Origin: Candidatus Phyllobacterium onerii
GTDB lineage: Bacteria; Pseudomonadota; Alphaproteobacteria; Rhizobiales; Rhizobiaceae
Assembly: GCF_028331445.1 (NCBI RefSeq)
Contig: NZ_JAQMHX010000009.1
Location: forward strand, 62,001-126,000
DNA length: 64,000 nucleotides
Direction: 5' to 3'
Shown here in pieces: positions 1 to 56,410 of this stretch (position 1 is the first letter of the stretch; the number at the start of each line of letters is the position of its first letter). Below the pieces are notes generated by a model that saw only the letters and a program-made list of their open reading frames with translations, was not told the origin of the DNA and searched no databases. Both the position numbers and the translations under genes were made by a program.

Positions 1-289
1 TCATTGCCAGATCACCCCTCGGCGTTGTGTATTCGCCCGCTGCAGTGCGTTCCGCCTCATCGACCTGCTCCAGAATGGCCTTGCTCGCCTCGACATAGGC
101 GCGGCCTGCATCGGTCAGCGAGACATGGCGGCTCGAACGGATAAGCAAACGCGTCTTCAGATGCGCCTCAAGGTCGGAGATTTTGCGACTGACCGTGGCA
201 AGCGGAATCCCAAGGCGGCGCGAAGCGGCGGATAGGCTTTCTGCCTCTATAACAGCAAGAAGCACGGCCATTGCATCCAGACGATCCAT
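1..289 (-). CDS. LysR-family transcriptional regulator, C-terminus cut by window edge
   Basis: Only the first 96 or so residues are present. They begin MDRLDAMAVLLAVIEAES and contain the LysR winged helix-turn-helix (AASRRLGIPLATVSRKISDLE at about residues 21-41) followed by the start of the linker helix. The ligand-binding half lies beyond base 1. It is divergent from the FMN-binding protein at 402, which is the usual LysR arrangement and makes that gene a likely target, although no operator was recognised. The ATG at 289 is the natural LysR start. Family assignment is firm; the effector is unknown. Confidence 0.9.
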   Translation of the reverse strand, partial: MDRLDAMAVLLAVIEAESLSAASRRLGIPLATVSRKISDLEAHLKTRLLIRSSRHVSLTDAGRAYVEASKAILEQVDEAERTAAGEYTTPRGDLAM

Positions 290-401
290 TCAAACCTTCC
301 ACTTTTCGGAATGAAAACTCCAATAACCGATGTCTACAGCAATTTCATGGAAGAAACTATGTTACGCGTTCACGTATCTGAATCCCTCCGAGGAGTTGGT
401 C

Positions 402-1022
402 ATGTCATCCGGACACGCCTTTTCCAGCGACGTCGCTTTCACGCCGACCGTCAAAGCGATCCAGACCCGCAAGGGGTCTCGCCATGGCTATGAGAGCATG
501 GAGCAGCGTGGCTCGTGGCAAACGCGTATTACGCCAGACCTGGCGGATTTCATCCGCAACCAGACCAGTATTTTCTTCGGCACCGCGAATGACGAGGGTC
601 AGCCTTATATTCAGCACCGCGGCGGCCCGCCCGGCTTTCTGCGCGTCATCGACGATACGACCATCGCGTTCGCGGATTTTGCCGGCAATCGGCAGTACAT
701 AACCTCCGGTAATCTCGCGGATAACTCCAAGGCGTTCCTGTTTCTCATCGACTACCGCAATCGCCAGCGGGTGAAACTATGGGGCGAAGCGCGAACTGTC
801 GAAGACGACCCAGATCTCATGCAAAAACTGATGCCGGAGGGCTATCGCGCACGGCCTGAGCAAACGATCTTGTTCACAGTTACTGCGTGGGACATGAACT
901 GCCCGCAGCACATTCCCATGCGTTTCGAGGCCAGCGACGTGGCCGCATTGTTGGCCGAGCGCGACGAGCGTATCAAGGCGCTCGAAGCGGAACTCGCCCG
1001 CTTGCGGAACCCGGCGCTCTAA
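402..1022 (+). CDS. Pyridoxamine 5'-phosphate oxidase-like FMN-binding protein
   Basis: A 206-residue protein of the flavin-reductase/PNPOx-like split-barrel type. It shows the core pattern of the family: FFGTANDEGQPYIQHRGG, then GFLRVIDDTTIAFADFAGN and a later RVKLWGEAR strand. A C-terminal charged coiled coil (ALLAERDERIKALEAEL) ends the protein and may mediate dimerisation. I chose ATG 402 because GGAG lies six bases upstream; an upstream ATG at 330 has no such site. Such proteins bind FMN or F420 and reduce or oxidise small substrates; the substrate here cannot be told. It is divergent from the LysR gene. Confidence 0.8.
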   Translation: MSSGHAFSSDVAFTPTVKAIQTRKGSRHGYESMEQRGSWQTRITPDLADFIRNQTSIFFGTANDEGQPYIQHRGGPPGFLRVIDDTTIAFADFAGNRQYITSGNLADNSKAFLFLIDYRNRQRVKLWGEARTVEDDPDLMQKLMPEGYRARPEQTILFTVTAWDMNCPQHIPMRFEASDVAALLAERDERIKALEAELARLRNPAL

Positions 1023-1032
1023 GGTTTGGGTC

Positions 1033-1293
1033 CTAGTTGTAAGACGCCGGATTACCCGTCTTCAAGCACTCGATCCGGCTTGCCAGGAGTGACGAGAATT
1101 GCGAATTCCCGACCCTCGAACCAATCTCGGCGATTTCGTCGAAGTCGACGTCGAGCAACAAGCCGCGTGCACTCAGCAAGGACATCACGCCTGTGACGAG
1201 CGTGCGTTCTACCGCATAGTCCATATTGAGTTGTGCTATTTCGTCTGACTGTTCTTTGAGAATGCTAAAAAGCTGCCCCAGTTTTTCGTTCAT
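1033..1293 (-). CDS. Hypothetical 86-residue protein
   Basis: An 86-residue ORF, mostly helical by eye, with no signal peptide, membrane segment or recognised motif. It ends ten bases after the convergent gene at 402-1022. No clear ribosome binding site precedes ATG 1293. Coding potential is plausible because residues such as DVDFDEIAEIGSR look protein-like, but I do not recognise the family and it may be lineage-specific. Confidence 0.45.
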   Translation of the reverse strand: MNEKLGQLFSILKEQSDEIAQLNMDYAVERTLVTGVMSLLSARGLLLDVDFDEIAEIGSRVGNSQFSSLLASRIECLKTGNPASYN

Positions 1294-1430
1294 TATTCGG
1301 TGCCCACCACGTAACCCCTGCCTGAATCATTCCAAGATTCTTGACGGAAACGTAATAGACCGTAAGAGCTATTTTATCGTCAGTTTGCTAACCAATGTGA
1401 TTTAGGGCCTCGGGCGACGGGCCATTTTGT

Positions 1431-1706
1431 TCACAGTCCCGGGATCATGGTGCTGGCAATGCTTCCTTCGACATAGATATCCGCTTCCTTGGCTGCCTCG
1501 ATGAACATGGACCGCGCCATGTCGCCGGTCGCACTTCCGTCCATGGCTTCAAGACACGCCAGTTGTGCGAGACCATGCAGTCGTCCGCGTTTGCCGGGCC
1601 ATTCGTTCAAGAGAAATTCTGCAGCCTCCGCGACGGAGGCTATCGTGCGAAGCCTATCGGGAAAAAGCGACTCTACTGTTACAGATCTGAAGTGAACGTT
1701 TTCCAT
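1431..1706 (-). CDS. DUF982 domain protein
   Basis: A 91-residue protein with the DUF982 pattern seen in many small rhizobial proteins: RTIASVAEAAEFLLNEWPGK, then a helix with the cysteine in AQLACLEAMDG, then a helix ending IEAAKEADIYV. The function of DUF982 is not known. I prefer ATG 1706 (MENVHFRSV), where the domain begins; the reading frame stays open to 1832 with other possible starts. Bases 1294-1430 between this gene and the previous one hold no recognised signal. Confidence 0.7.
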   Translation of the reverse strand: MENVHFRSVTVESLFPDRLRTIASVAEAAEFLLNEWPGKRGRLHGLAQLACLEAMDGSATGDMARSMFIEAAKEADIYVEGSIASTMIPGL

Positions 1707-1904
1707 GGTGCTAGAACGCAAGGGCTCAAATTTAGGTTCCCGTTTCAAAACTTGCATCCTTGTAGCTAGTTGAACTTCGCCGTGCATTGCCTGTTTACTT
1801 CGGCGACCATGTGCTACGTTCGCTGAAATCAAATTGGATACATTCGCCTGGTTCGCGCGGCGAATAGGCGAAGACCTTCAAATCACGACCAAGGGAGAAA
1901 CGCG

Positions 1905-2564
1905 ATGGGCCTTCGCATTAATGACACTGCACCGGATTTCACTGCTGAAACCACGCAGGGCGAAATCCATTTCCACGACTGGATCGGCGGTAGCTATGCC
2001 GTGTTGTTCAGTCATCCGAAGAATTTCACGCCAGTCTGCACGACCGAGCTTGGCTACATGGCCGGACTTGCTCCGGAGTTCGCCAAACGCAATGCCAAGA
2101 TCATCGGCATTTCGGTCGATCCTGTCGAAAACCACGACAAGTGGAAGGCGGATATCAAGACGGCAACTGGGCATGAGGTCGACTACCCCCTCATCGGCGA
2201 CAGGGATCTGAAGGTCGCGAAACTGTATGACATGCTGCCCGCGGAAGCCGGCGATACGTCCGAGGGCCGCACACCCGCCGACAACGCCACCGTACGCTCC
2301 GTCTTCGTCATTGGTCCGGACAAGAAGGTGAAGATGACCCTCACCTATCCGATGACCACGGGCCGTAACTTCGACGAGATCCTGCGCGCAATCGACAGCA
2401 TCCAGCTCACCGCGAAACACCAGGTTGCGACACCGGCCCAGTGGAAGCAGGGTGAGGATGTCATCATCACCGCAGCGGTTTCGGATGAGGACGCGAACCA
2501 GCGTTTCGGCGGCTTCGAGCGTGTGTTGCCCTACTTGCGCAAGACCAAGCAGCCAAGCGCCTGA
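1905..2564 (+). CDS. 1-Cys peroxiredoxin (Prx6 family)
   Basis: A 219-residue cytosolic thiol peroxidase that would reduce hydrogen peroxide and alkyl hydroperoxides. The peroxidatic cysteine is C45 in NFTPVCTTELG, which is the Prx6-type PVCTTE motif rather than the 2-Cys VCPTE motif. The long C-terminal dimerisation arm (QWKQGEDVIITAAVSDEDA) is also typical of 1-Cys enzymes, and the length is normal for the group. GGGAG lies eight bases before ATG 1905. It is monocistronic, with a strong terminator just downstream. Confidence 0.93.
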   Translation: MGLRINDTAPDFTAETTQGEIHFHDWIGGSYAVLFSHPKNFTPVCTTELGYMAGLAPEFAKRNAKIIGISVDPVENHDKWKADIKTATGHEVDYPLIGDRDLKVAKLYDMLPAEAGDTSEGRTPADNATVRSVFVIGPDKKVKMTLTYPMTTGRNFDEILRAIDSIQLTAKHQVATPAQWKQGEDVIITAAVSDEDANQRFGGFERVLPYLRKTKQPSA

Positions 2565-2574
2565 ACGATACGAC

Positions 2575-2609
2575 ATGAAACCCGCCCTGACCGGCGGGTT
2601 TCATTTTTC
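2575..2609 (+). terminator. Rho-independent terminator of the peroxiredoxin gene
   Basis: A perfect 12-bp stem, ATGAAACCCGCC (2575-2586) pairing with 2593-2604, encloses a six-base loop and runs into a T tract. It starts 10 bases after the peroxiredoxin stop and could also serve the convergent lipoprotein gene. Confidence 0.92.
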
Positions 2610-2622
2610 TATCACGTTGTTC

Positions 2623-3201
2623 CTATTGTAATCCGCAACTCGCTAGCTGCGCGGCATAGGTACCAGCCACAGTGGCAGTCCGCCGCGCGGTTCGATCGAT
2701 GCCCGGCTTGCTCCGCCACGTTCCACGCGCATAGTCATTCGGCCCTGCATAGTAAGCGGCGTAGAGATTATAGGCATCGTTGAGCGGAATGCCGTTCAGC
2801 AGATGGCTTCTTGCGTGGTACCATCCAATGAAACGCACGGCGTCGCTGAAATCCGTTCGCCGGGCTGTCCAGCGTCCGGTTTCCCTCTGATAGTCTGCCC
2901 AGGTCCCATCCAGAGCCTGCGAATACCCATATGCGGTGGATGGCCGTGACCATGGAATAAAGCCGAACAATTTTGTACGCGGCGGCTTGACCCGGGCCTG
3001 ATAGCCGGATTCCGTATAGATCGTCGCCATGAGGATGGGAACCGGCACGCCATATTCCGTCTCGACGCTCTTGGCCTGCTTGTACCAATTGTTGAAGAAG
3101 CCGTCTCTCTGATCGAACACGGCACAGACATTGCTGGTCTGGGTTGGCGCTGTGGCGCAGCCTGTGAGCAACAACAACGCGATGAACATGATGCGGCGCA
3201 T
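2623..3201 (-). CDS. Transglycosylase-SLT-type lipoprotein
   Basis: A 192-residue predicted lipoprotein. The N-terminus has a signal peptide ending in the lipobox LLTGC (Cys at residue 15). The body resembles the lytic transglycosylase SLT fold: VPVPILMATIYTESGY carries the likely catalytic glutamate, followed by AYGYSQALDGTW and NLYAAYYAGPNDYARG. It would cleave peptidoglycan glycan strands at the outer membrane face. It is a single gene, convergent with the peroxiredoxin. Family assignment is good; exact cleavage activity is inferred. Confidence 0.85.
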   Translation of the reverse strand: MRRIMFIALLLLTGCATAPTQTSNVCAVFDQRDGFFNNWYKQAKSVETEYGVPVPILMATIYTESGYQARVKPPRTKLFGFIPWSRPSTAYGYSQALDGTWADYQRETGRWTARRTDFSDAVRFIGWYHARSHLLNGIPLNDAYNLYAAYYAGPNDYARGTWRSKPGIDRTARRTATVAGTYAAQLASCGLQ

Positions 3202-3412
3202 GGGCGAGTCCTTGGTCTAGATCCCTTCACCTATTCCGCAATTCCTAACGACTGGTTACCGGTTAATTGATTCGTAATCTCCTCCTTAAAATTTGATTAA
3301 AGATCGATTTGGCACTGCGCGGCTTCGCCTCTTGACCCGTCAATTAATACCGTCATACAATACTACGATGCGCGACAAACATCTCCATCCATGCTGAAGC
3401 GGAACAATTACC

Positions 3413-4240
3413 ATGAGCGATTTGATGCCCACTCAAACGATAGGCTTTGCGGAAACCCGCGACGGGATAAGGCTTTCCTATCGCATCGTCCCGGGGAACG
3501 GCGAAGGCCGCTGCGTTCTCATTCATTCGCTGGCCATGGACAAGTTTTTCTGGGAGCCAACCGCGGCGGCACTCGCCGGTGCATCCGAGGTTCTCATTTA
3601 TGACTGCCGCGGTCACGGCGTTTCCGGCAAACCGGCAGGCCCCTACAGCACTGCGCAATTCGCCGATGATCTCGCCGATCTCATGAACCATGTCGGCTGG
3701 TCATCGGCCGTCGTCGCCGGTGCGTCGATGGGTGGCTGCATCGCCCTTGCCTTTGCCGCAGCCTATCCTGAGCGTGTCAACGCTCTTGGTCTCTTCGACA
3801 CCACGGCCTGGTACGGAGAAAATGCTCCCGCAGCCTGGGCTGAACGCGCTGAAAAAGCCAGGAACGAAGGCCTGAAGGCGCTTGTCGGTTTCCAGAAGAC
3901 GCGCTGGTTCAGCGATGGCTTTCACGAGGCAAATCCGGACGTGGTGGAAGCCGCTGTCTCGACCTTCCTCGCCAATGAAATCGACGCCTATGTCGCGACC
4001 TGCAACATGCTCGGTGCAGCCGACCTGCGCGAAGCATTGCCGAAGTTTGACTTCCCTTGCCGCGTTCTTGTCGGAACCGAGGATTATGCGACGCCGCCGG
4101 AAATGGCGCGTGTGCTCGCAGATAACATTCCCGGCGCTACGCTGACGATCCTCGAGGGCGCCCGCCATTTTACCCCGCTGGAAGTACCGGCCATCATCGC
4201 CGGCAATCTGCAGCTGCTGATCGAGGCCGCCAAGGCCTGA
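3413..4240 (+). CDS. Alpha/beta hydrolase (enol-lactonase / deformylase-like)
   Basis: A 275-residue cytosolic alpha/beta hydrolase. The nucleophile elbow is GASMGG with Ser105, the oxyanion region is HSLAMDKFFWEP, the acid is the Asp of VGTEDYATPP and the histidine is in GARHFTPLE. Overall shape matches PcaD-like 3-oxoadipate enol-lactonases and the NicD-type N-formylmaleamate deformylases. It is convergent with the amidohydrolase at 4281-5027, and that pairing recalls late steps of pyridine carboxylate breakdown. That link is inference from context; substrate specificity is not visible. Confidence 0.85.
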   Translation: MSDLMPTQTIGFAETRDGIRLSYRIVPGNGEGRCVLIHSLAMDKFFWEPTAAALAGASEVLIYDCRGHGVSGKPAGPYSTAQFADDLADLMNHVGWSSAVVAGASMGGCIALAFAAAYPERVNALGLFDTTAWYGENAPAAWAERAEKARNEGLKALVGFQKTRWFSDGFHEANPDVVEAAVSTFLANEIDAYVATCNMLGAADLREALPKFDFPCRVLVGTEDYATPPEMARVLADNIPGATLTILEGARHFTPLEVPAIIAGNLQLLIEAAKA

Positions 4241-4252
4241 GGGGATATAAAG

Positions 4253-4276
4253 GACGGCGCGATCACTCGCGCCGTC
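4253..4276. terminator. Bidirectional hairpin between convergent genes
   Basis: GACGGCGCG (4253-4261) pairs perfectly with 4268-4276 across a six-base loop, placed between the stops of the hydrolase (4240) and the amidohydrolase (4281). No long T tract follows, as is common for terminators in this group. Confidence 0.65.
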
Positions 4277-4280
4277 TGAC

Positions 4281-5027
4281 TTATTCCGCCGCCTTTTGGC
4301 TGGCACCACGCGGCAGATTGTACATGCCGCGCGGCAGTCGTGACAGAAATTCGATGACTTCGCTGCTGTCGATGACATCTGCATACTTGGCGTTCATGTC
4401 GCACAGCGTCATGGCGTGGCTCGCCTCGGAACGCTCAAAGCACCCGTCTTCGACCATCGTCACCCGTAGATTATAGCTGAAGGCATCGACCACCGTCGCG
4501 CGCACACAGCCGCTGGTTGCGGTTCCAGCAACGATGACACTGTCACAGCCGAGCAGCGTCAAATAGCTGATGAGGTTGGTACCGTGGAAAGCGCTGGGCT
4601 TCTGCTTGTAGATGACAACGTCGCTCGGTTCGGGCGCGATCTGCGGCATGATCTCGTTGCCGTCACGATTGCTGCCGCCAGGTTTTTCACCGCTGCGTTC
4701 ATTCTTCCAGGCCCAGCTGCCCGCGTCCCAATTGTCGGAGCGTCGCACTCCGGTCGTATAGATCACCGGGACTTCGCGGTCGCGGGCTGTTCCAATCAGG
4801 TTCTGCAGAACAGGCAGGGCATCCCAGGCGGCTTCGCCACCCGACTGGCGCCAGCGTTTGACCGATTCAAGCAGCGGCTCCCGCTTGTCGCCGCAGAACG
4901 CGTAGTTGACGTCGACGATCAGCAGCGCCGGTCGCTTGCCAAAGCCTGCCCGCGCGCCATATCCGGCTAGCTTGAACACTTCCTTGTCGCGCTCCGTCAG
5001 GAATTTGTCCCAAATTCGCTCTGCCAT
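4281..5027 (-). CDS. Isochorismatase-family amidohydrolase (N-carbamoylsarcosine amidase / maleamate amidase type)
   Basis: A 248-residue cysteine hydrolase. The family triad is visible as Asp39 in ALLIVDVNYAF, Lys143 in KQKPSAFHGT and Cys174 in AGTATSGCVRAT, so it is an amidase-type member rather than a degenerate one. ATG 5027 is chosen because GGAGGA lies just upstream; the open frame to 5198 has no such site. Relatives hydrolyse N-carbamoylsarcosine or maleamate. The gene is divergent from the ABC importer at 5262, and shares its intergenic region with a palindrome at 5165-5181. The substrate is not determined. Confidence 0.88.
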   Translation of the reverse strand: MAERIWDKFLTERDKEVFKLAGYGARAGFGKRPALLIVDVNYAFCGDKREPLLESVKRWRQSGGEAAWDALPVLQNLIGTARDREVPVIYTTGVRRSDNWDAGSWAWKNERSGEKPGGSNRDGNEIMPQIAPEPSDVVIYKQKPSAFHGTNLISYLTLLGCDSVIVAGTATSGCVRATVVDAFSYNLRVTMVEDGCFERSEASHAMTLCDMNAKYADVIDSSEVIEFLSRLPRGMYNLPRGASQKAAE

Positions 5028-5164
5028 TGTGTCTATCCTCCATCCTCTGAAAATCACCGGAAAACCATGCCATGGCGTCGCCGATCGGATGAAAACACGC
5101 TTCCGTGTACCCTCCTTCCGACAAAAAGATGCCTTGGCGACTTGACTTCTCCCACAAATTTGTT

Positions 5165-5181
5165 TGTATGGCAAACATACA
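5165..5181. promoter_or_regulatory. Palindrome in the divergent amidohydrolase/ABC importer promoter
   Basis: TGTATG-N5-CATACA is a perfect inverted repeat in the 234-bp gap between divergent genes. The string TGTATGGCA recurs as TGTATGACA at 14494 in the divergent promoter of the Mo-hydroxylase and UbiD genes, so both may bind the same regulator, possibly the GntR/FCD protein at 16381. Confidence 0.4.
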
Positions 5182-5261
5182 TTATAACAGAATGACAAGA
5201 GAAATTAAGCCAACTGCATTTGCGTGAATGCCCGGCACGGGCGCCCTTGGAGGAGGAACTC

Positions 5262-6257
5262 ATGATTCACAAGTCTCTTAAAACCCGTTTTGCCTGCGCT
5301 TTCGCCGGTGTGATCCTTGCGTCAACCGCAATGACGTCGATAGCCAGCGCTCAAGAGGCGTGGCGCCACGGCATCGTTGAAGCCAAGGGCGATTCCGGTT
5401 TCCTCTTTCAAGCTGCAGAAGGCGGCTTCGATGACAAGCACGGCATCAACATCGACATGGTGCAATTCACCGGTGGTCCAACTGCGTTGAAGGCGCTCAT
5501 CGCCGGCGATCTCGACAGTTTCGAGGCGAGCCCCGTTATCGCGCTCTCCGCATTGCATCAGGGCGCCGACGTCAAGATCATCGGCTGCGACTGGCCCGGC
5601 ATGACCTATACGGTCTTTTCCGGTAAAGACATCGCGAGTGCGGCTGATCTCAAAGGCAAGACGGTCGGCGTTTCTGCGCCTGGCTCGCTTCCCGATATTT
5701 TCACCCGCCTCGCGCTTGAAGCGTCCGGCCTTGCCAATACGGACGTAACGTTTGCCAATGCCGGCGGCAGCGCCGATCGCGTCAAGGCAGTTGGCGGCGG
5801 CGTCGTTGCTGCTGCTGCCAGCTCAAGCGAATTTGCCGTCGATGCAGACGCCTTGAACGTCAAGCCGCTTTTGAAGGGTGTCGAGGTTACACCGCAGTTC
5901 CTCAAGGTGTGCATCATGACCACCGGCAAGAAGATCGCCGAGCGCCGCGAAGCGATGACCAATTTCCTCGCCGCCGAGATGGAAGGCCTCGCTCATGCGA
6001 TTGCCAACAAGGACGCAATGCTCGAGGTTGCACGCAAGGTCGGTCACCTGCCCGAGGACGACAAGACCGCCGAGTTCATTTACAATGAAGCTATCGAATA
6101 CAAGGCGATCAATGCGGATCTGGCCATCCCCTTGGACAAGCTGCAGTGGGTTGACGATGAGATGGTCAAGCTCAAGTTCCTCGACGGCAACGCCGATACC
6201 AAGAAGTTCGTCGATGACAGCGTGCGCACCGAGGCTCTCGCACGCGTCAAGAAATAA
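5262..6257 (+). CDS. ABC transporter substrate-binding protein, NitT/TauT (NMT1/SsuA-like) family
   Basis: A 331-residue periplasmic binding protein. Residues 1-30 form a Sec signal peptide ending ASA before QEAW. The mature part has the SsuA/NMT1 pattern: GFDDKHGINIDMVQFTGG, DLDSFEASPVIALSALHQGA, and DLKGKTVGVSAPGSLPD. ATG 5262 has a very strong GGAGGAGG site; the longer open frame upstream is not needed. It is the first gene of a three-gene importer with the ATPase and permease that follow. Family members carry sulfonates, nitrate, riboflavin precursors or aromatic acids. Context suggests an aromatic acid, which is inference. Confidence 0.9.
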   Translation: MIHKSLKTRFACAFAGVILASTAMTSIASAQEAWRHGIVEAKGDSGFLFQAAEGGFDDKHGINIDMVQFTGGPTALKALIAGDLDSFEASPVIALSALHQGADVKIIGCDWPGMTYTVFSGKDIASAADLKGKTVGVSAPGSLPDIFTRLALEASGLANTDVTFANAGGSADRVKAVGGGVVAAAASSSEFAVDADALNVKPLLKGVEVTPQFLKVCIMTTGKKIAERREAMTNFLAAEMEGLAHAIANKDAMLEVARKVGHLPEDDKTAEFIYNEAIEYKAINADLAIPLDKLQWVDDEMVKLKFLDGNADTKKFVDDSVRTEALARVKK

Positions 6258-6269
6258 CTGGAAAAGAAT

Positions 6270-7031
6270 ATGGCCCATCTGGAAGTACAGAACATCACCA
6301 AGTCCTTTGGCACGCATCATGCCCTGGACGGTGTCTCCTTCAATGTCGAAAAGGGTGACGTCGTTGCCCTGATCGGCCCAAGCGGATGCGGCAAGACGAC
6401 CGCCCTGCGCATTATCATGGGCCTTGAGACAGCCACGTCCGGGCAGGTCAAAGTCGCCGGGCGTCCTGTCTCCGGCTGTGGTCACGACCGCGGCATGGTG
6501 TTCCAGCATGCCGAATTGCTGCCTTGGCGCAATACGCTCAGCAATATCGGCTATGGGCTGGAGATGAAGGGCATGAAGGAGCCTGAACTTTCCCGGACGG
6601 CCATGCATTATCTGGAACTGGTCGGTCTGACCCTGGCAAAGGACAGACGCCCTCACCAGCTTTCCGGCGGCATGAAACAGCGCGTGGGTATTGCTCGCGC
6701 GCTGGCGATCGATCCCGAAGTCCTTCTGATGGACGAGCCTTTCGGCGCGCTGGATTCACAAACGCGTGAGGGGCTTCATGGCGAACTGCTTTCCATCCAT
6801 GCCAAGACCCAGAAGACGATCATTTTCGTGACCCATGATCTCGACGAAGCGGTGATGCTCGCAGACCGCGTTGCGGTCATGCATGGCGGCAAGATAAGCC
6901 AGATCATTCCGATCGAACTGGAGCGCCCGCGCCTCGATATGCGCGCCATCCGCACTTCGGCGGAATATTCCAAGAAACGCACGCTGATCTGGGAAGCCCT
7001 GCACGATGCGGGCGTTTCGGCTGCAGCCTAA
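6270..7031 (+). CDS. ABC transporter ATP-binding protein (NitT/TauT type)
   Basis: A 253-residue cytosolic ATPase. Walker A is GPSGCGKT at residues 36-43, the signature is LSGGMKQR near residue 131 and Walker B is [12 protein letters not shown]. The Q-loop region reads [11 protein letters not shown], typical of the SsuB/TauB branch. It starts 12 bases after the binding protein and ends 9 bases before the permease, so the three are one operon. Confidence 0.95.
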
Positions 7032-7040
7032 GGAAAGACT

Positions 7041-7877
7041 ATGACGACAGACGCAGAAATACAGGCGCCAGCCCGCGTGGAGCGCCGCACAGGTCAGGCA
7101 AGCTGGACAACCACTGTACCGGCGTGGGTGATCACCACCATATCGGTCGCCGTAGCGACTGGTCTCTGGGAGTTCTTCGGCCGCGACGTCAACCCGTTGC
7201 TTGGCACCTACCCCAGCGCCATCATCAAGGCATTCTTCTCGATGCTGCAGACCGGCCGCCTGCAGGACGCGCTCATTCAAAGCAGCCAGCCATTCATCGT
7301 TGGTTATATCGTCGCTGCGATCGTCGGTATCCCGGTCGGTCTTCTCCTCGGCCGATACCGCATTCTCGAGTCCGCCCTGGGCATCTATGTCACCGCTGGC
7401 TATGCCACCCCGCTGATTGCCCTTGTTCCCTTGCTGATCCTGTGGTTCGGTCTTGGCTTCATGGTCAAGGCCGTTGTGGTTTTCCTCCTCTCCTTCTTCC
7501 CGATCTGCATCAACACGTGGTTCGGTGTGAAGGCCGTGCCGAAAACCATGATCGAGGTCGGCACCGCCTTCTGCGCCTCGCAGACGGCCATCATGCGCGG
7601 CATCATTCTGCCGGCAACAATCCCTTACATCATGGCAGGTCTGCGTCTCGGTATCGGCAAGGCGGTCATCGGTATCGTCATCGCCGAGTTCCTCACCGCG
7701 ATCTCCGGCCTCGGCGGCATCATCATCACTTCGGCCAATAGTTTCCGCACCGCAGAGATGTTCGTGCCCGTCATTCTGATCATGGTGCTCGCCGTGGCCT
7801 TGACCGCGCTGGTCGGATGGCTGGAAAAATACGTTGCCCCGTGGCAGAGCGAAATCACCGGCCACGACAGCGTCTGA
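7041..7877 (+). CDS. ABC transporter permease (NitT/TauT type)
   Basis: A 278-residue inner membrane protein with about six hydrophobic segments and the EAA-like loop EVGTAFCASQTAIMRGIILPATIPYI, characteristic of SsuC/TauC permeases. It completes the importer begun at 5262 and is followed by a terminator at 7905, which closes the operon. The N-terminal 25 residues are polar and cytoplasmic. Confidence 0.93.
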   Translation: MTTDAEIQAPARVERRTGQASWTTTVPAWVITTISVAVATGLWEFFGRDVNPLLGTYPSAIIKAFFSMLQTGRLQDALIQSSQPFIVGYIVAAIVGIPVGLLLGRYRILESALGIYVTAGYATPLIALVPLLILWFGLGFMVKAVVVFLLSFFPICINTWFGVKAVPKTMIEVGTAFCASQTAIMRGIILPATIPYIMAGLRLGIGKAVIGIVIAEFLTAISGLGGIIITSANSFRTAEMFVPVILIMVLAVALTALVGWLEKYVAPWQSEITGHDSV

Positions 7878-7904
7878 AACGACAAGGTCCATCGCTTATT
7901 GAAG

Positions 7905-7937
7905 AATCCGCTGCGGGCAACCGCGGCGGTTCTTTTT
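7905..7937 (+). terminator. Terminator of the NitT/TauT importer operon
   Basis: A GC-rich stem of about nine pairs (CCGCTGCGG with CCGCGGCGG, one G-T pair) with a short loop, followed by TTCTTTTTG. It lies 28 bases after the permease stop. Confidence 0.8.
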
Positions 7938-7957
7938 GCTTTGACCGATTTAATAAT

Positions 7958-8057
7958 ATGTCGATATAAATTGATTTTGTCGACATAATAGGGCATCGTG
8001 TCGACCCAATCGACATGTAACAATGATACGTCGATGAAAACCGAGAACATCGACATG
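7958..8057. promoter_or_regulatory. Symmetric six-site operator array upstream of the Fic gene
   Basis: Six TCGA-centred boxes (TGTCGAT/TGTCGAC and complements) lie at 7961, 7980, 8001, 8010, 8031 and 8050. The spacings are 19, 21, 9, 21 and 19 bases, so the whole array is mirror-symmetric about 8007 and stays close to whole helical turns. The last box touches the Fic start codon. This is most easily read as a cooperative repressor site. Confidence 0.6.
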
Positions 8058-9155
8058 ACCTTTCGGCCTGAACGTCCCTACAATGATTTGCCTCTTTTGC
8101 CCCCATCGCGGGATATAGAGACAAAGTCTATACTAAAGGCCTGCACCGAGGCACGCGTAGCCTTGACAGAACTGCTGGTATCGGGCCAACTCATACCCAA
8201 CCAAGCTGTGTTGATCAGTTCCATCCCTCTCCTGGAAGCACAGGCAAGTTCCGAGATCGAAAATATTGTCACAACAACGGATCGTCTGTTTCGCTTTGTC
8301 AACGAAGAAAGCAATCAAGCGGATGCGGCAACAAAGGAGGCTTTACGATACCGCACCGCTCTTCGGGAAGGGTTTCGACTGCTCGAACAACGCCCACTCT
8401 CCACGTCAATAGCAGTTAAGGTTTGCCGTACGATCAAAGGTCTTGATCTGGATATTCGTGCTACACCCGGGACAGCACTTGTGAACGAGGCAACCGGCGC
8501 CGTTATTTATACGCCCCCTGATGGGCAGGACTTGCTGCGCGATAAGCTCGCAAACTGGGAGCGTTATATCCATGAAGCGGAAGACATCGATCCAATCATC
8601 CGCCTTGCGGTAATGCATTATCAGTTCGAGGCAATCCACCCGTTCACTGACGGGAACGGCAGAACAGGCCGTGTCTTGAATCTTTTGTTTCTCGTCGACA
8701 AAGGATTGTTGGAAATTCCGATCCTCTATCTTAGCCGCTACATTATCCGGAACAAATCGCTCTACTATCAGCGGCTTCTGGCCGTCACTACAAATAGCGA
8801 ATGGGAGAACTGGATTCTTTTCATGATTGAAGCAGTGAAGGAGACTGCACAATGGTCGACATTGAAGATCCGCGCAATTCGCGACCTTTTGAATGAAACT
8901 ACCGCCAGAATTCGTCAAGAACTGCCAAAAATCTATTCTCGAGAGCTTGCAGAAATTATCTTCGTTAATCCTTATTGCCGCATTGGCGATCTGGTTGACT
9001 CAGGAATTGCCAAGAGGCAAACGGCCTCCACCTATCTGAAAGCGCTCGTAGAAATAGGCGTGCTTCGGGAAATCAAATCAGGACGCGAAAACCTTTTCAT
9101 CAATCCGGCAATGCTGGATCTCCTGTCCGAAGGCGGCGGATTGAACGGAGCATAA
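8055..9155 (+). CDS. Fic-domain AMPylase with N-terminal inhibitory helix and C-terminal winged helix
   Basis: A 366-residue Fic protein. The start MTFRPERPYNDLPLLPP is the standard N-terminus of this subgroup. The inhibitory motif S65-x3-E69-N70 (SSEIEN) marks a class II, self-inhibited enzyme, and the active motif HPFTDGNGRTGR is complete at residues 195-206. Such enzymes transfer AMP from ATP to target proteins. The C-terminal 80 residues (VNPYCRIGDLVDSGIAKRQTAS and onward) look like a winged helix, so it could also bind DNA and its own operator array. Codon use is more AT-rich than the neighbours, suggesting transfer. Earlier in-frame starts at 7998 or 8034 exist but lie inside the operator array. 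Confidence 0.9.
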   Translation: MTFRPERPYNDLPLLPPSRDIETKSILKACTEARVALTELLVSGQLIPNQAVLISSIPLLEAQASSEIENIVTTTDRLFRFVNEESNQADAATKEALRYRTALREGFRLLEQRPLSTSIAVKVCRTIKGLDLDIRATPGTALVNEATGAVIYTPPDGQDLLRDKLANWERYIHEAEDIDPIIRLAVMHYQFEAIHPFTDGNGRTGRVLNLLFLVDKGLLEIPILYLSRYIIRNKSLYYQRLLAVTTNSEWENWILFMIEAVKETAQWSTLKIRAIRDLLNETTARIRQELPKIYSRELAEIIFVNPYCRIGDLVDSGIAKRQTASTYLKALVEIGVLREIKSGRENLFINPAMLDLLSEGGGLNGA

Positions 9156-9176
9156 CTCCATCAGCATGATCTATCA

Positions 9177-9992
9177 TCATTCGATCAATGTGCCGCCGAG
9201 GTTTTCCACTGCACGGCGGGTCACGACCCCGACAAGATGCGCGCGGTAATCGGCAGGAGCGTGCATGTCGCCCATCAGGTCGTTCTCATCTGGCAGCAGC
9301 CCTTTCACCGCATCGGGCTCGAACCGCGCCTGCAGCGCTTCCTCGGCCTCCGTCCAGCGAAAGACGCCGGCGTTTCCGGCCCCCGTGATCGCCACATGGA
9401 TATTGCCGTCGCGATGACGGGCAACGAACGCAGCTGCCAAGGCATACCGTGACGCCGGATTGCGAAACTTGGCATACCCGGCAATCTCCGGCATCTTGAA
9501 CTCGATACGGACGAGAATTTCACCAGGCTCCAGCATCGTGGTGTAGAGCCCGGCGAAATATTCGGAAGCCGGGATGCTGCGGCGATCCGTATGCAATGTC
9601 GCATCGAGCGCCAGCACGGCCGACGGGTAGTCGGCTGCCGGGTCATTATTGGCAACCGAGCCGCCGATCGTGCCGACATGCCTGACCTGAACGTCACCGA
9701 TCGAACCGGCAAGGCCACAAAGCGACGGAATGAGCGCCCTGATCTTTTCGGATGCAGCGACGGTGGCATGCGTGGTTGCCGCACCGACGATGATTCGATC
9801 GGGACCAACGGTAATACCCGAAAGCTCGGGAATGCGGCGAACATCGATCAGATGGGCAGGCGCCGCCAGCCTTCCCTTCATCGTGGGGATCAGCGTATGC
9901 CCGCCGGAGAGGTAAGCGGCTTCCTCGACTTTGGAGAAAAGACTGACTGCTTCCTGCAGCGTTCCCGGCCTATGATAGGTTGTTTCATACAT
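9177..9992 (-). CDS. Molybdenum hydroxylase FAD-binding subunit (CoxM/CutM-like)
   Basis: A 271-residue flavoprotein subunit that passes electrons from the iron-sulfur subunit to FAD. The two FAD motifs are SGGHT at residues 29-33 and TIGGS at 108-112. It is the last gene of a five-gene minus-strand operon (14432 to 9177), 15 bases after the 2Fe-2S subunit. It lacks the extra cysteines seen in the second FAD subunit of this window (22255), so it is the ordinary CoxM type. Confidence 0.93.
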   Translation of the reverse strand: MYETTYHRPGTLQEAVSLFSKVEEAAYLSGGHTLIPTMKGRLAAPAHLIDVRRIPELSGITVGPDRIIVGAATTHATVAASEKIRALIPSLCGLAGSIGDVQVRHVGTIGGSVANNDPAADYPSAVLALDATLHTDRRSIPASEYFAGLYTTMLEPGEILVRIEFKMPEIAGYAKFRNPASRYALAAAFVARHRDGNIHVAITGAGNAGVFRWTEAEEALQARFEPDAVKGLLPDENDLMGDMHAPADYRAHLVGVVTRRAVENLGGTLIE

Positions 9993-10007
9993 TGGCGTCT
10001 GCCTTCT

Positions 10008-10499
10008 TCATTCCGCCGCGACGGCGTGCGCCGCGCGGTGCTTTTCAGCGGCGGAGAGTACCGCCTTGATGATGTTGTGATATCCCGTGCAACGGCAAAG
10101 ATTGCCCTCGAGCTCGTGGCGAACCGTTGCCTCATCGAGAACACCGTCGTGTCGCTCAATCATGTTGACCGATGCCATGATCATGCCGGGCGTGCAAAAA
10201 CCGCACTGCAACCCGTGGTGTTCATGAAAGGCCGCCTGCACATCGTGCAGCTTTTCGCCATCGGCCAAGCCTTCGACCGTGGAAACCGATGCTCCTTCGA
10301 TCGAGGCCGCAAGTATCGTGCAGGATTTGACAGCCTTGCCGTCGACGATGACCGTGCAGGCGCCGCACTGCGTCGTGTCGCAGCCGACATGTGTTCCGGT
10401 CAGGCCAAGATGATCACGCAGGAACTGGACGAGCAACGTACGGTCTTCGACCTCCTTCGTGTGGAGCGTGCCGTTGACGGTGATGGCGACTTTGGACAT
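10008..10499 (-). CDS. Molybdenum hydroxylase 2Fe-2S subunit (CoxS/CutS-like)
   Basis: A 163-residue protein with a plant-ferredoxin-type cluster domain (C40, C45, C48 in [11 protein letters not shown] and a fourth Cys near residue 60) and the second all-helical cluster domain (CGFCTPG and CRCTGY). It links the molybdenum subunit to FAD. No Tat signal is present, so the enzyme should be cytosolic. It lies between CoxG and the FAD subunit in the operon. Confidence 0.95.
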
Positions 10500-52394: not shown

Positions 52395-53489
52395 TCAAGC
52401 CTCAATTTCAACATTGCCGAGTGGCTTGGAACAGCACGCGAGCACATAGCCCTCGTCGATCTCATCGTCGAGAATACCGCCATTGTGGTCCATCTCGACC
52501 TCGCCGGAAATTTTCATGACCTTGCAGGTGCCGCAGAGCCCCGATTCACAAGCCGCCGCAATGCGAATACCGGCGCCGCGTGCGGCCTTCAGGATCGTTT
52601 CGCCCGGGGCACATGCCACTTCCATGCCCGACATGGAAAAACTGACCATCGCTGATCTCTCAACGGCCTCTGTTGATATCGCATCCATCATCGGCAACAC
52701 CGGTTCGGCGGCCGGTCCGAAACTCTCTTGGTGGTAATGCGTCATGTCGAAGCCGGATGTTTCGAGCATGGTGCGGACATCGCGCATGAAGGTTTCAGGC
52801 CCACAACAGAAAATTGTTCTGTATTTGAAGTCCGGCGAAAGCAACGGCAATCGCGCCTCTTCAAAACGGCCGCGAATACCGGTCCACACCTGCCCCATCT
52901 CGTGTTCCTTTATAAGGAAGGCAAGCTTCAGGTTCGGCATGCAGCTTGTCAGATATTCAAGCTCCCTGCGAAAAATGATGTCGCTCGGCCGGCGTGCGCA
53001 GGTCACGAAATTGATGTCGCTTTGCGGGGCGCAATCGTGCATCCAGCGCGTCATCGACATCATCGGCGTGATGCCAGAACCCGCCGAGATGAACAGGTAC
53101 TTTTCGCCGGGATGCTTGCGCATGGAGAAATCGCCAAGCGGCCCGAATGCCTTCAACCGCGCACCCGGCGTCAGATGGTCGAGCATCCACCGTGCACCTA
53201 TACTGCTGTCCTGGGCTTTCACTGTCACGGCAATGGTGAATGGCCGGGACGGACTGGAGGACAATGTGAATGTGCGCAAGGCGGCTTCCGGCTGCACCGG
53301 CAATTCGAACGTCATGAACTGGCCGGGCTCATAGCGAAACCAGTTCTGATTGTCCGATTTGAACGTGAAAGTTTTCACATTGGGCGCTTCCTCGATGACC
53401 GACAGGCACTCCAGCAGATGCAGCCGATCATTCCATGGCTGCATCTGATCGAGGTGTGGATAGGTCTGAGGAAGCGTCATATTCATCAT
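52395..53489 (-). CDS. gbcB: Oxygenase reductase with C-terminal 2Fe-2S domain (GbcB-like)
   Basis: A 364-residue flavin reductase. The ferredoxin-NADP reductase module has RYEPGQFMTFELP and LRTFTLSSSP for FAD and GSGITPMMSMTRWMHD and CCGPETFM for NAD(P)H. The C-terminal plant-type ferredoxin domain has CESGLCGTCKVM and the final CC in VLACCSKP. It passes electrons to the Rieske oxygenase, with which it overlaps by four bases. GbcB of glycine betaine demethylase is the nearest named type; stachydrine or other quaternary amine systems look alike. Confidence 0.88.
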   Translation of the reverse strand: MMNMTLPQTYPHLDQMQPWNDRLHLLECLSVIEEAPNVKTFTFKSDNQNWFRYEPGQFMTFELPVQPEAALRTFTLSSSPSRPFTIAVTVKAQDSSIGARWMLDHLTPGARLKAFGPLGDFSMRKHPGEKYLFISAGSGITPMMSMTRWMHDCAPQSDINFVTCARRPSDIIFRRELEYLTSCMPNLKLAFLIKEHEMGQVWTGIRGRFEEARLPLLSPDFKYRTIFCCGPETFMRDVRTMLETSGFDMTHYHQESFGPAAEPVLPMMDAISTEAVERSAMVSFSMSGMEVACAPGETILKAARGAGIRIAAACESGLCGTCKVMKISGEVEMDHNGGILDDEIDEGYVLACCSKPLGNVEIEA

Positions 53490-54727
53490 GCTACCTTGCT
53501 GAGCTTGTTATTGCCGGAAAGCCTTGTTTCCATGGAATTGCTGTACCATTCGAGGAATTGCAGCACGCCGCCCTCGTGTTCGACCGAATATGGCCCCGGT
53601 TCATAGGCCGGCGAGCGGATACCGAATGCATTTTCTTCCACGATACGGCGGTCCTGATTGTTGGTTTCGAGCCAGACATGCGTCAGTTCTTCGAGATTGT
53701 AATCGACACCTTCAACCGCATCCTTGTGGACGAGCCACTTCGTCGTGACCTCGGTCTCGTTCGGTCCGAGCGGGAGCACGCGGAAAGAAATCGCCTGGTC
53801 GCCGAGAACATGGTTCCACGTGGTCGGGTAATGATAGAGCAGCAGCGAACCGATCTGCTGCGCGTTGACGTCATCACTAAGTTGTCTGCCGACCGCACGC
53901 TTGCCACTAATAGTATAGCTCTCGGCACCGCTGAGCAGTGGTACGCGCGTGGCGCGATACTGCCCGTCCTCTGCAATACGGAACACACTTGGGAGGCCAA
54001 CTGCCTCGCACTTGTCCCAATGCGCGACCATTTCAGGATCCTCCTTGGAGCCCTGGATTCCGGTAGCGCTTGGCGCTTCGGGGAAGGTCTTGCACAGTTC
54101 CGGGTGGTTGGCGACGCAGTGGTAGCATTCGCGATTGTTTTCCCAGACGAGCTTCCAGTTGCCTTTTTCGACAATCGAACTCTGGAATGCCACCTTGGTC
54201 TCGGTCAGGCGATGCGGCGCGAGATAGGGTTCGAGCAGTGCGCGTGTCGGGCCAAAATCCGGAGCGACCGGCGCCAGGCAAATGAAGATGTAGCCCCCCA
54301 CGCTTTCGCAATGCACCGTTTTCAGGCTGTGCTGGCTAGCATCGAAATCGTCGCCCATCTGGCGGGCGAACAACAAACGGCCGTCCAGTTCATAGGTCCA
54401 CTGATGGTAGGGGCAGACGAGCTTTGCCGCTGTACCCCTTTCAGCGGCACAAACACGCGATCCGCGATGGCGGCAGGAATTGTGGAAAGCGCGGATCTGT
54501 TTTTGGCGGTCGCGTACGATGACGACCGGATAGTCGCCAACCTGAACCGTGAAGTAGTTGCCCGGCTTGGCCACCTCGCAATCATGGCCGATGAACAGCC
54601 AATCGCGATAGAAAATATTCTCCATGTCGAGGCGGTAGTAGTCCGGATCGGAATAGAATGCCTGTTCAAGTCCGTAGCCCGGTTTCCGGTTCCTGAGATT
54701 CCGGAGCAGTTCGTTACGAATGTCCAT
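53486..54727 (-). CDS. gbcA: Rieske non-haem iron oxygenase alpha subunit (GbcA-like)
   Basis: A 413-residue oxygenase. The Rieske cluster ligands are C85, H87, C105 and H108 (SCRHRG and CPYHQW); the mononuclear iron ligands include H203 and H208 in NRECYHCVANHP and the Asp of NNQDRRIVEENAFGI. Length and motifs fit glycine betaine monooxygenase GbcA, which demethylates betaine to dimethylglycine and formaldehyde. CGAGGA precedes ATG 54727. The 405-bp upstream gap holds a cobalamin riboswitch, so this operon is probably shut off when vitamin B12 is plentiful. Confidence 0.88.
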   Translation of the reverse strand: MDIRNELLRNLRNRKPGYGLEQAFYSDPDYYRLDMENIFYRDWLFIGHDCEVAKPGNYFTVQVGDYPVVIVRDRQKQIRAFHNSCRHRGSRVCAAERGTAAKLVCPYHQWTYELDGRLLFARQMGDDFDASQHSLKTVHCESVGGYIFICLAPVAPDFGPTRALLEPYLAPHRLTETKVAFQSSIVEKGNWKLVWENNRECYHCVANHPELCKTFPEAPSATGIQGSKEDPEMVAHWDKCEAVGLPSVFRIAEDGQYRATRVPLLSGAESYTISGKRAVGRQLSDDVNAQQIGSLLLYHYPTTWNHVLGDQAISFRVLPLGPNETEVTTKWLVHKDAVEGVDYNLEELTHVWLETNNQDRRIVEENAFGIRSPAYEPGPYSVEHEGGVLQFLEWYSNSMETRLSGNNKLSKVA

Positions 54728-54827
54728 GTCGTGTCCTCGCCCTAAAAGCTGCAAAGAACTGACTGGTGGTGACGGAGAAGAACGTCCATACAGTCAACGG
54801 ATGTCGACCGCACAAAAGCATGCTCCT

Positions 54828-54846
54828 TGATCGCCCACCGCGATCA
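54828..54846 (-). promoter_or_regulatory. Hairpin downstream of the riboswitch, possible expression platform
   Basis: TGATCGC-N5-GCGATCA is a perfect seven-pair stem placed 11 bases after the end of the aptamer on the minus strand and about 100 bases before gbcA. AAGGAG follows it. Its switching role is a guess. Confidence 0.45.
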
Positions 54847-54857
54847 GTCGGTTTTGT

Positions 54858-55041
54858 CACTCGAGGCTGGTTTCCGGGCTCTGGAGTTGCCTTGTCTGGC
54901 TTCGCGACGCCTTCCCGGGGTGCACTCCCAGTGGCTGTTTTGCCGCGTTTTCCACTCCACTACCGTTGCGGGGGCAGCGCCGGGTTTTTTGACCGGCTTC
55001 CCAATTCTCCGCTCTCTCCCTGGAAAGCGGCACCTCAAGTG
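54858..55041 (-). promoter_or_regulatory. Cobalamin (B12) riboswitch upstream of gbcAB
   Basis: On the minus strand the closing stem CACTTGAGG / CCTCGAGTG (55033-55041 with 54858-54866) encloses the conserved B12 aptamer parts: GAATTGGGAAGCCGGT, the core GCTGCCCCCGCAACGGTA (54961-54978), the B12-box-like CAGCCACTGG (54928-54937), GGGAAGGC (54909-54916) and GCCCGGAAACC (54869-54879). The next gene on this strand is gbcA. Bound cobalamin normally lowers expression. Confidence 0.93.
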
Positions 55042-55132
55042 TCTCGATAAGAGCACTCGGCAGAACAAAAGAATAGGCGCGGAAACGACATCGCATTTAC
55101 GCAAGACGACACGGAAGAAATACCCCCCGAGT

Positions 55133-56410
55133 TTAAGCTTTGTACAAATACTGTTTGATCGACTCCGGCTTCATCTCGATCGAGAAACCCGGCAATGACG
55201 GCGGCATATAGGCGGCATTCTGGATGTTGCACGGATCGACGAAATGTTCATGCAGATGGTCGACATATTCGATGACTCTGCCCTCTTTCGTGCCCGACAC
55301 CGCGACATAGTCGATCATCGACAGATGCTGCACATATTCGCAAAGGCCCACACCGCCTGCATGCGGCCAAACCGGCAGATCATACTTCGCCGCGATCAGC
55401 AGCACAGCCAGCACCTCGTTGAGCCCACCCATGCGGCAAGAATCGATCTGCACCACGTCGATGGCGCCCTCGGCGATGAACTGCTTGAACATGATGCGGT
55501 TCTGGCACATCTCGCCTGTCGCAACCTTCACCGGGTGAATGGCCTGCCGAATCTTGCGATGCCCGGCAACATCGTCTGGACTCGTCGGCTCCTCGATGAA
55601 GAACGGTTTGACGAAGGCGAGCTTGCTTACCCAGTCGATAGCCTCGTTGACCTCCCACACCTGATTGGCATCGATCATGAGGATGCGGTCGTCGCCGATC
55701 ACCTCGCGGGCAATAGTCAGACGGCGGATATCATCGTCGAGATCGCGACCGACTTTCATCTTGATGTGATTGAAACCTGCGTCGATAGCCTCCTGGCAAA
55801 GGCGACGCAGCTTGTCATCCGAATAGCCAAGCCAGCCCGCCGAGGTTGTATAGCAAGGATAACCTGTCGCTTTCAGATCAGCGATCCGCTCCTGCTTGCC
55901 CTTCTCCGCCTTGCGCAGAATTTCAAGCGCCTCATCCCGTGTCAGTACATCGGTCAGATAGCGGAAATCGACAATACTGACGATCTCTTCCGGAGTCATT
56001 TCGCCGACAAGTTGCCAGACCGGTTTCCCGGCTTCCTTTGCCAGCAAGTCCCACACGGCGTTTACGACAGCACCGGTTGCGAGGTGCATCGCGCCCTTGT
56101 CCGGTCCGATCCAGCGAAGCTGGCTGTCGCCTGTGACGAAATGCCAGAAGCGACCCGGATTTTCCTTCACCCAATCCAGTTCCAGCCCGATGACGAGGTG
56201 CTTCAGCGCCTCGATCGCCATACAGACGATTTCATTGCCGCGCCCTATGGTGAAGGTCAGGCCATGGCCGGCAAGTCCATCCGCATCCGTGTCGAGCACG
56301 ACATAGGCCGCCGAATAGTCCGGATCCGGGTTCATCGCATCCGACCCATCGAGACTTTGCGACGTGGGAAACCGGATATCGAAAACGCGAAGATCGGTAA
56401 TGCGGGTCAT
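55133..56410 (-). CDS. fucD: L-fuconate dehydratase (enolase superfamily)
   Basis: A 425-residue dehydratase. Family marks are IKMKVGRDLDDDIRRL with the catalytic lysine, DANQVWEVNEA, FFIEEPTSPDD and ATGEMCQNRIMFKQ for the metal ligands, and LPVWPHAGGVGLCEYVQHL with the catalytic histidine. Sequence and length fit L-fuconate dehydratase, the ENOSF1/FucD type. It is the last gene of the sugar acid operon, separated from the dehydrogenase gene by RIME-like copy D. GGAG precedes ATG 56410. Confidence 0.9.
   Translation of the reverse strand: MTRITDLRVFDIRFPTSQSLDGSDAMNPDPDYSAAYVVLDTDADGLAGHGLTFTIGRGNEIVCMAIEALKHLVIGLELDWVKENPGRFWHFVTGDSQLRWIGPDKGAMHLATGAVVNAVWDLLAKEAGKPVWQLVGEMTPEEIVSIVDFRYLTDVLTRDEALEILRKAEKGKQERIADLKATGYPCYTTSAGWLGYSDDKLRRLCQEAIDAGFNHIKMKVGRDLDDDIRRLTIAREVIGDDRILMIDANQVWEVNEAIDWVSKLAFVKPFFIEEPTSPDDVAGHRKIRQAIHPVKVATGEMCQNRIMFKQFIAEGAIDVVQIDSCRMGGLNEVLAVLLIAAKYDLPVWPHAGGVGLCEYVQHLSMIDYVAVSGTKEGRVIEYVDHLHEHFVDPCNIQNAAYMPPSLPGFSIEMKPESIKQYLYKA

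Follow-up and report, generated by a model that had tools for sequence, protein, structure and literature searches.

The window analysed here is a 64-kb stretch (64,000 nucleotides) of a Candidatus Phyllobacterium onerii contig, and its minus strand carries a cobalamin riboswitch followed by a gene pair for a Rieske oxygenase and its reductase. The first gene encodes a GbcA/Stc2-like Rieske oxygenase subunit (P0001, 413 aa, 53486-54727, ATG start codon at 54727) and the second a GbcB/Stc4-like ferredoxin reductase (P0002, 364 aa, 52395-53489), with the two ORFs overlapping by 4 nt. P0001 has the Pfam domains Rieske and Ring_hydroxyl_A, P0002 has Fer2 and NAD- and FAD-binding domains, and nothing beyond these Rieske, ring-hydroxylase, FAD/NAD and 2Fe-2S domains was found in either protein. 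The pair has the make-up of a two-component Rieske N-demethylase, i.e., a Rieske CxH...CxxH motif and a ring-hydroxylase catalytic domain with an adjoining FAD/2Fe-2S reductase. On this strand, a 425-aa ORF that by eye is a putative enolase-superfamily dehydratase ends upstream of the riboswitch, at 55133.

A preliminary description of this DNA named the first gene on the strand gbcA, overlapping gbcB. Its position and overlap hold, and the best NCBIfam models are GbcA for P0001 (NF058607, 516.7 bits) and GbcB for P0002 (NF058606, 384.1 bits), but these scores are below the curated cut-offs of 670 and 500, so the name gbcA is a lead rather than an assignment. The best PDB matches of P0001 are 3n0q (a putative aromatic-ring hydroxylating dioxygenase) and 3vca/4qup (ring-hydroxylating dioxygenase; monooxygenase/demethylase), the last two of which we take to be S. 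meliloti Stc2. P0001 shares 56% identity with the oxygenase encoded next to stc4 in S. meliloti and 47-50% with three GbcA matches that exceed the curated cut-off. In a quick tree with SH-aLRT support only, it is on a branch separate from the stachydrine-locus protein and does not group with Stc2. P0001 belongs to the GbcA/Stc2 superfamily but, by the tests made, falls outside both the GbcA equivalog and the Stc2 branch, and glycine betaine is our first choice as the most likely substrate of the pair.

The riboswitch aptamer lies at 54848-55052 on the minus strand, with 120 nt between its 3' end and the oxygenase start codon. The preliminary description had recognised a B12 aptamer on this strand and proposed a covariance search as a check, and that search bears it out: RF00174 matches with 105.3 bits (gathering threshold 31.5) and an E-value of 2.5e-25, with model positions 1-189 aligned, which is full-length. 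Rfam cmscan gives no other match over gathering in the whole window. The interval reported earlier (54728-55041) consists of the aptamer minus its first 11 nt, plus the leader down to the start codon. In an alignment of 19 sequences, the aptamer core is invariant across genera and compensatory changes occur in 19 of 48 predicted pairs. Both the E-value and this pattern contradict the idea that the aptamer is a chance match or a decayed element without function, the probability of which we consider negligible. The window carries a genuine, conserved cobalamin riboswitch upstream of the Rieske pair.

Two predicted structures follow the aptamer. Immediately after it is a hairpin (54828-54846, minus strand) with the loop motif GCGGTGGGC (54833-54841), and the general form of this motif, GCGGNGGGY, occurs in 54 of 55 leaders (GCGGTGGGC in 33, GCGGCGGGC in 19 and GCGGAGGGC in 2), the exception being locus L057. 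Only one of 10 other B12 leaders contains it, at a distant position, and it is absent from the four metE/nrdAB leaders examined. Closer to the gene, a hairpin predicted at 54724-54766 (minus strand) encloses the Shine-Dalgarno sequence GAGGAC (54733-54738) and the start codon, making it a candidate expression platform. The window leader has a fold z-score of -2.62, and its predicted probability of Shine-Dalgarno pairing is 0.99, compared with a mean of 0.81 when the upstream sequence is shuffled. Over 55 leaders, the mean is moderately above that of shuffled sequences (0.86 vs 0.69), with the difference reversed in L024, L046, L053, L079 and L084. A scan for intrinsic terminators yields one minus-strand candidate (54816-54785, tail CGTTCTTCTC, a poor T run), and candidates on both strands number 3 vs 0.6 in shuffles. 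On these fold predictions, we favour translational OFF control over intrinsic termination.

Further upstream, at 55085-55111 of the minus strand (G000:C9:117085-117111), there is a direct repeat of TGTCGY with a 21-bp period. Among the best 80 related loci listed, a TGTCG repeat with a period of 20-22 bp (mostly 21) is found in 51 of the 54 that have the riboswitch (all but L007, L050 and L051) and in 26 of the 26 that do not, compared with 5 of 800 shuffles. The repeat starts 384 nt ahead of the oxygenase start codon in the window and 128-245 nt ahead of it in riboswitch-negative loci, leaving aside L082, where the copy differs in position and spacing and is probably due to chance. The riboswitch therefore looks like a module placed between promoter and gene. 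The repeat is probably an activator site that responds to an inducer, and its retention with or without the riboswitch suggests two inputs: inducer present and B12 low. No sigma-70 promoter was found at the locus by consensus scan, although by eye there is a candidate -10 element, TTATCG, at 55045-55050 (minus strand), which reads TTAGAT in many relatives. A stricter form of the repeat has a second match in the source genome (C11:127344-127370), which we take as chance: it lies 8 nt past a 485-aa ORF, apparently purL, with no gene evidently ahead, and the reversed-pattern control also gives one match in this genome.

Relatives were surveyed with covariance models, as a B12-box regular expression missed nearly all Mesorhizobium copies. 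The best 80 related loci listed come from named records, mostly of Hyphomicrobiales, with 68-86% identity, the closest from a named genome among the matches listed being that of Phyllobacterium myrsinacearum (86%). The survey of promoters in related genomes, also proposed in the preliminary description, places an aptamer upstream of the oxygenase orthologue in 54 of these loci and none in the other 26, as judged by a model that we call R1. This model was built on 19 sequences (the window and 18 of the 80 loci), which match by construction, and Rfam gives the same call for each of the 23 distinct loci compared among the 80 (15 positive, 8 negative). A filters-off search for hidden weak aptamers in eight riboswitch-negative loci gave a best hit of 11.6 bits (E 0.045), which is inside the gene itself. 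Of 219 genomes sampled evenly across the order, 24 encode an oxygenase homologue (E<=1e-150). Besides the window's own genome, the aptamer is present in 13 of the remaining 23 (in one genome, both of two copies have it), and Rfam confirms it in all 12 of these 13 that were scanned.

The riboswitch is also present at the S. meliloti CP090106 and Ruegeria TM1040 megaplasmid loci. No cobalamin riboswitch was found at the Paracoccus versutus pTAV3 locus, at the S. meliloti stc4-side locus (L098), or in the 1.5-kb flanks of the three loci whose GbcA exceeds the cut-off. The window pair differs from two of its closest known counterparts. The stachydrine demethylase Stc2/Stc4 of S. meliloti has the same two-gene architecture, but its oxygenase is on a separate branch and its locus lacks the riboswitch. 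Likewise, the glycine betaine monooxygenase GbcAB of Pseudomonas and Chromohalobacter, as outlined in the accessible part of PMC12478193, shares the two-component arrangement of Rieske oxygenase and reductase, whereas the window pair scores below both curated cut-offs and the over-cut-off GbcA loci have no cobalamin riboswitch.

Some oxygenases on the stachydrine side of the tree are preceded by a cobalamin riboswitch (L096 at 2961-3164, L115 at 3792-3986 and L119 at 5613-5809), including that of Ruegeria TM1040, so the association is possibly older than the window's clade. The source genome encodes two further Rieske oxygenases with full-length similarity to P0001 (41%, G000:C6:143855-145051, and 34%, G000:C5:325966-327126), and model R1 finds no cobalamin riboswitch in the 1.5-kb flanks of either.

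The 6.0-Mb source assembly contains four cobalamin riboswitches. By eye, the other three appear to head an ABC-transporter region, a bluB-like gene and cbtAB/cob genes. Putative genes of a B12-dependent route are on the same contig as the cbtAB/cob region, about 8-27 kb from it: two MttB-family proteins (PF06253), a metF-like gene, a RACo-type corrinoid activator, an MtgD-like pterin methyltransferase over the NF005719 cut-off and a BHMT/MtgE-like protein over the NF005718 cut-off. The corrinoid protein of this set has B12-binding domains but scores 213 (cut-off 370) and 177 (cut-off 310) in NCBIfam, and we call it MtgC-like based on its domains, its position and its likeness to the system in the part of PMC12478193 available to us. 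Given this set of MttB-, MtgC-, MtgD- and MtgE-like proteins near the cob region, the source genome very probably has a B12-dependent betaine route. In the available text of PMC12478193, Ruegeria pomeroyi is shown to require MtgC and MtgD both to demethylate glycine betaine and to make methionine, the S. meliloti mtgBCDE genes adjoin a cob operon, and the S. meliloti route of glycine betaine catabolism is presented in revised form.

These genes also bear on the substrate. The pair could follow the same B12 logic with another quaternary ammonium compound (e.g., proline betaine), its counterpart then being an MttB paralogue. This would suit the closer identity of P0001 to the stc4-side oxygenase than to over-cut-off GbcA proteins, the PDB matches 3vca and 4qup, and the presence of up to seven MttB matches in several genomes, some of which are fragments of one gene. 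It fits less well with the quick tree, which separates P0001 from the stachydrine-locus protein, with the lack of a riboswitch at that locus, and with an OpuAC-domain betaine-type binding protein encoded beside MttB in the source genome. We consider another substrate possible, with roughly one chance in four, and glycine betaine more likely.

If the Rieske pair is an alternative to the corrinoid route, the riboswitch should be found where that route is, and it largely is. In 26 riboswitch-positive and 26 riboswitch-negative genomes, PF06253 (MttB family) is present in 25 and 1, respectively, and these same genomes carry an MtgC orthologue (81-100% identity). For the rest of the 52, the only MtgC-like matches are at ~33-36% and fall mostly within ORFs of MetH size. 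With S. meliloti and 22 genomes of the order sample included, the panel grows to 75, of which 39 have both riboswitch and MtgC, 31 have neither, 1 has only the riboswitch and 4 have only MtgC (70 concordant, 5 discordant), with MtgC in 39 of 40 riboswitch-positive genomes. In the order sample alone, MtgC is in 13/13 riboswitch-positive and 3/10 riboswitch-negative genomes. The S. meliloti record CP090106 (labelled pSymB, 3.7 Mb) holds the riboswitch-led pair and mtgC together.

Fisher values for this association (2.7e-12 and 1.3e-15) ignore kinship. Close relatives are not independent, and we therefore counted independent pairs on the oxygenase tree. In the 52-genome panel, three pairs change in the same direction, none in the opposite direction and two show no difference; in the 75-genome panel, the averages are 3.4, 0 and 2.6. 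With approximately three informative changes, none of them contrary, the kinship-corrected sign test is not significant (median p 0.25), so the association is consistent but not significant after correction.

The discordant genomes are few. Those with MtgC but no riboswitch are L075, L114 (60% identity) and the 53-55% identity homologues L120 and L121. L075 has retained MtgC while its riboswitch is gone, and a permissive Rfam scan of its positions 4000-5100 found no aptamer. The L121 homologue falls with the stachydrine-locus protein in the tree, and its substrate may be a different betaine. The sole riboswitch-positive genome without MtgC is L057, whose aptamer (4642-4834) is the weakest of the 54, with 95.1 R1 bits (next 148.5), 57.9 Rfam bits and altered core letters; its sister L035 has no riboswitch. 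This is what would be expected if the switch decays once its partner route is gone, and L057 looks to be a candidate case of a riboswitch decaying after that loss. One other account of riboswitch loss, that it reflects a loss of B12 sensing in general, was rejected: the riboswitch-negative genomes G018, G024, G026 and G027 keep 2-4 other B12 riboswitches each (4/4 checked).

Gene neighbourhoods in relatives point the same way. In L050 (Mesorhizobium sp. J18; 169-10124) and L038 (a Mesorhizobium MAG; 73-10440), the riboswitch-led oxygenase-reductase pair is flanked by riboswitch-led nrdA nrdB and a convergent riboswitch-led metE, making each cluster a possible "B12-independence island". In both loci, nrdA, nrdB and metE exceed their NCBIfam cut-offs and Rfam confirms all three aptamers. 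Across 108 neighbourhood loci, which include some near-duplicates, many negatives that are close Rhizobium kin, and differing lengths, nrdA is near the pair in 6/70 riboswitch-positive vs 0/38 negative loci, nrdB in 5 vs 0 and metE in 2 vs 0. These neighbours matter for the sign of the switch. There is a report of a corrinoid riboswitch that activates (PMC10653944, of which part was accessible), and by that precedent the pair could be made when B12 is high, but aptamers of the same family heading the neighbouring metE and nrdAB make sense only as OFF switches, and we regard an activating switch as very improbable.

A further idea in the preliminary description was that the demethylase feeds one-carbon units when MetH is short of B12. 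Low B12, with MetH stalled and methyl-folate trapped, would then switch the pair on for formaldehyde and one-carbon supply, and betaine catabolism would be secondary. The support for this is weaker and non-specific. A metH-like sequence is near the pair in 7/70 riboswitch-positive vs 0/38 negative loci; among these, the L011 metH passes TIGR02082 and a fragment cut off in L109 scores 1010.4 against a threshold of 1010.85. The source genome has no MetE by TIGR01371, which should leave its production of methionine vulnerable to a lack of B12. Against this, the riboswitch follows MtgC, while the matches in mostly MetH-sized ORFs persist in both groups, and MetE, the direct remedy for methionine, is over its cut-off in 6/26 riboswitch-positive and 1/11 riboswitch-negative genomes. 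We consider a primary role in one-carbon supply unlikely.

The preferred reading is that the Rieske pair is the B12-independent counterpart of MtgBCD betaine demethylation, repressed by adenosylcobalamin, probably at the level of translation. We hold this to be likely. The preliminary description had offered such an alternative to a corrinoid route as one possibility, and it now gains support from the riboswitch tracking MtgC in the 75 genomes, the MttB/MtgC/MtgD/MtgE-like proteins of the source genome, and the riboswitch-led nrdAB and metE flanking the pair in two relatives. Adenosylcobalamin binding, repression, the translational mechanism, control by an inducer and the substrate are the parts of it that we infer. 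P0001 and P0002 would together form a two-component Rieske N-demethylase that removes methyl groups from a betaine (glycine betaine being the likeliest) as formaldehyde, and would stand in for the cell's usual corrinoid-dependent MttB/MtgB-MtgC-MtgD system. Transcription would start at a promoter whose direct repeat of 21-bp period is probably the site of an activator responding to an inducer, and the resulting leader would open with the aptamer. When adenosylcobalamin is plentiful, it would bind the aptamer, keeping the Shine-Dalgarno sequence paired and translation off. When B12 is short, the pair would be made and betaine could still be demethylated with O2.

MtgBCD and the Rieske pair would share a substrate and, presumably, the same overall conversion, with a likely version of MtgBCD(E) in the source genome (named after the system in the accessible part of PMC12478193). 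They differ in chemistry: MtgBCD(E) performs a B12-dependent methyl transfer towards tetrahydrofolate, whereas the Rieske pair would release formaldehyde in an O2-dependent reaction. Two gene neighbourhoods fit with the latter. In L110, an 88% homologue of Paracoccus fdhA (glutathione-independent formaldehyde dehydrogenase) follows the pair, and in Paracoccus L095, the pair has fdhA and a gene for a BCCT transporter after it and a GlxA-family regulator before it. Such neighbours suit a formaldehyde-releasing betaine demethylase but would suit one for any N-methyl betaine. With somewhat less confidence, we think it probable that many Hyphomicrobiales and some other Alphaproteobacteria have alternative betaine routes arbitrated by B12, with the corrinoid methyltransferase route in use when B12 is at hand and the Rieske route released by its own riboswitch when it is not, together with an inducer operator (an AND gate), and that genomes which lose the corrinoid route go on to lose the riboswitch but retain the operator.

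The closest parallel is the metE riboswitch, which has the same aptamer family and likewise controls a B12-independent isozyme alongside a B12-dependent enzyme of that genome; a metE of this kind adjoins the Rieske pair in L050 and L038. The difference is that an O2-dependent catabolic Rieske demethylase is controlled here and the system replaced would be MtgBCD, not MetH. The nrdAB genes (class I ribonucleotide reductase), another known cobalamin riboswitch target, follow the same logic and are found near the pair as counted above, but they encode an essential enzyme of DNA-precursor synthesis and the Rieske pair would degrade a nutrient. The metE/metH precedent for B12-repressed isozymes is set out in the accessible part of PMC9600662, and a category of "isozymes of B12-dependent enzymes" exists in that of the B12-regulation paper PMC3766115. 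The Rieske pair is a real, conserved and sensible addition to the B12-independent isozymes under B12-riboswitch control.

The preliminary description knew of no account of this pairing, and we likewise found no report of a cobalamin riboswitch with a Rieske betaine demethylase in the open-access literature searched, although classic B12-regulon tables may mention it. The words Rieske, dioxygenase and betaine do not occur in the main text of PMC3766115 (the part seen), and in the available part of PMC12478193, the one mention of "riboswitch" is in the title of a cited work about glycine in SAR11. If the preferred reading is true, a catabolic, O2-dependent enzyme joins the short list of isozymes controlled by B12 riboswitches, and rhizobia have a functional reason to keep both Rieske and corrinoid betaine routes. 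B12 status would then decide the fate of betaine methyl groups (into folate or out as formaldehyde), tying betaine use by plant-associated bacteria to the supply of cobalt and B12. S. meliloti offers a clear test, with the riboswitch-led pair and mtgC both on CP090106.

Two arrangements of methionine synthase genes were seen beside riboswitch-led pairs. In L105, L107, L109 and L112, which belong to one family of the order, a metH-like gene is directly downstream of the pair on the same strand, an odd place for a B12-dependent enzyme if it is co-transcribed with an OFF-switched pair. In L113, the N-terminal part of MetH is apparently split into two ORFs, 3-1837 (-) and 1964-2890 (-), beside a MetR-like gene that is below the MetR cut-off, and a second B12 riboswitch at 3414-3618 (-) sits back to back with the one that heads the Rieske pair.
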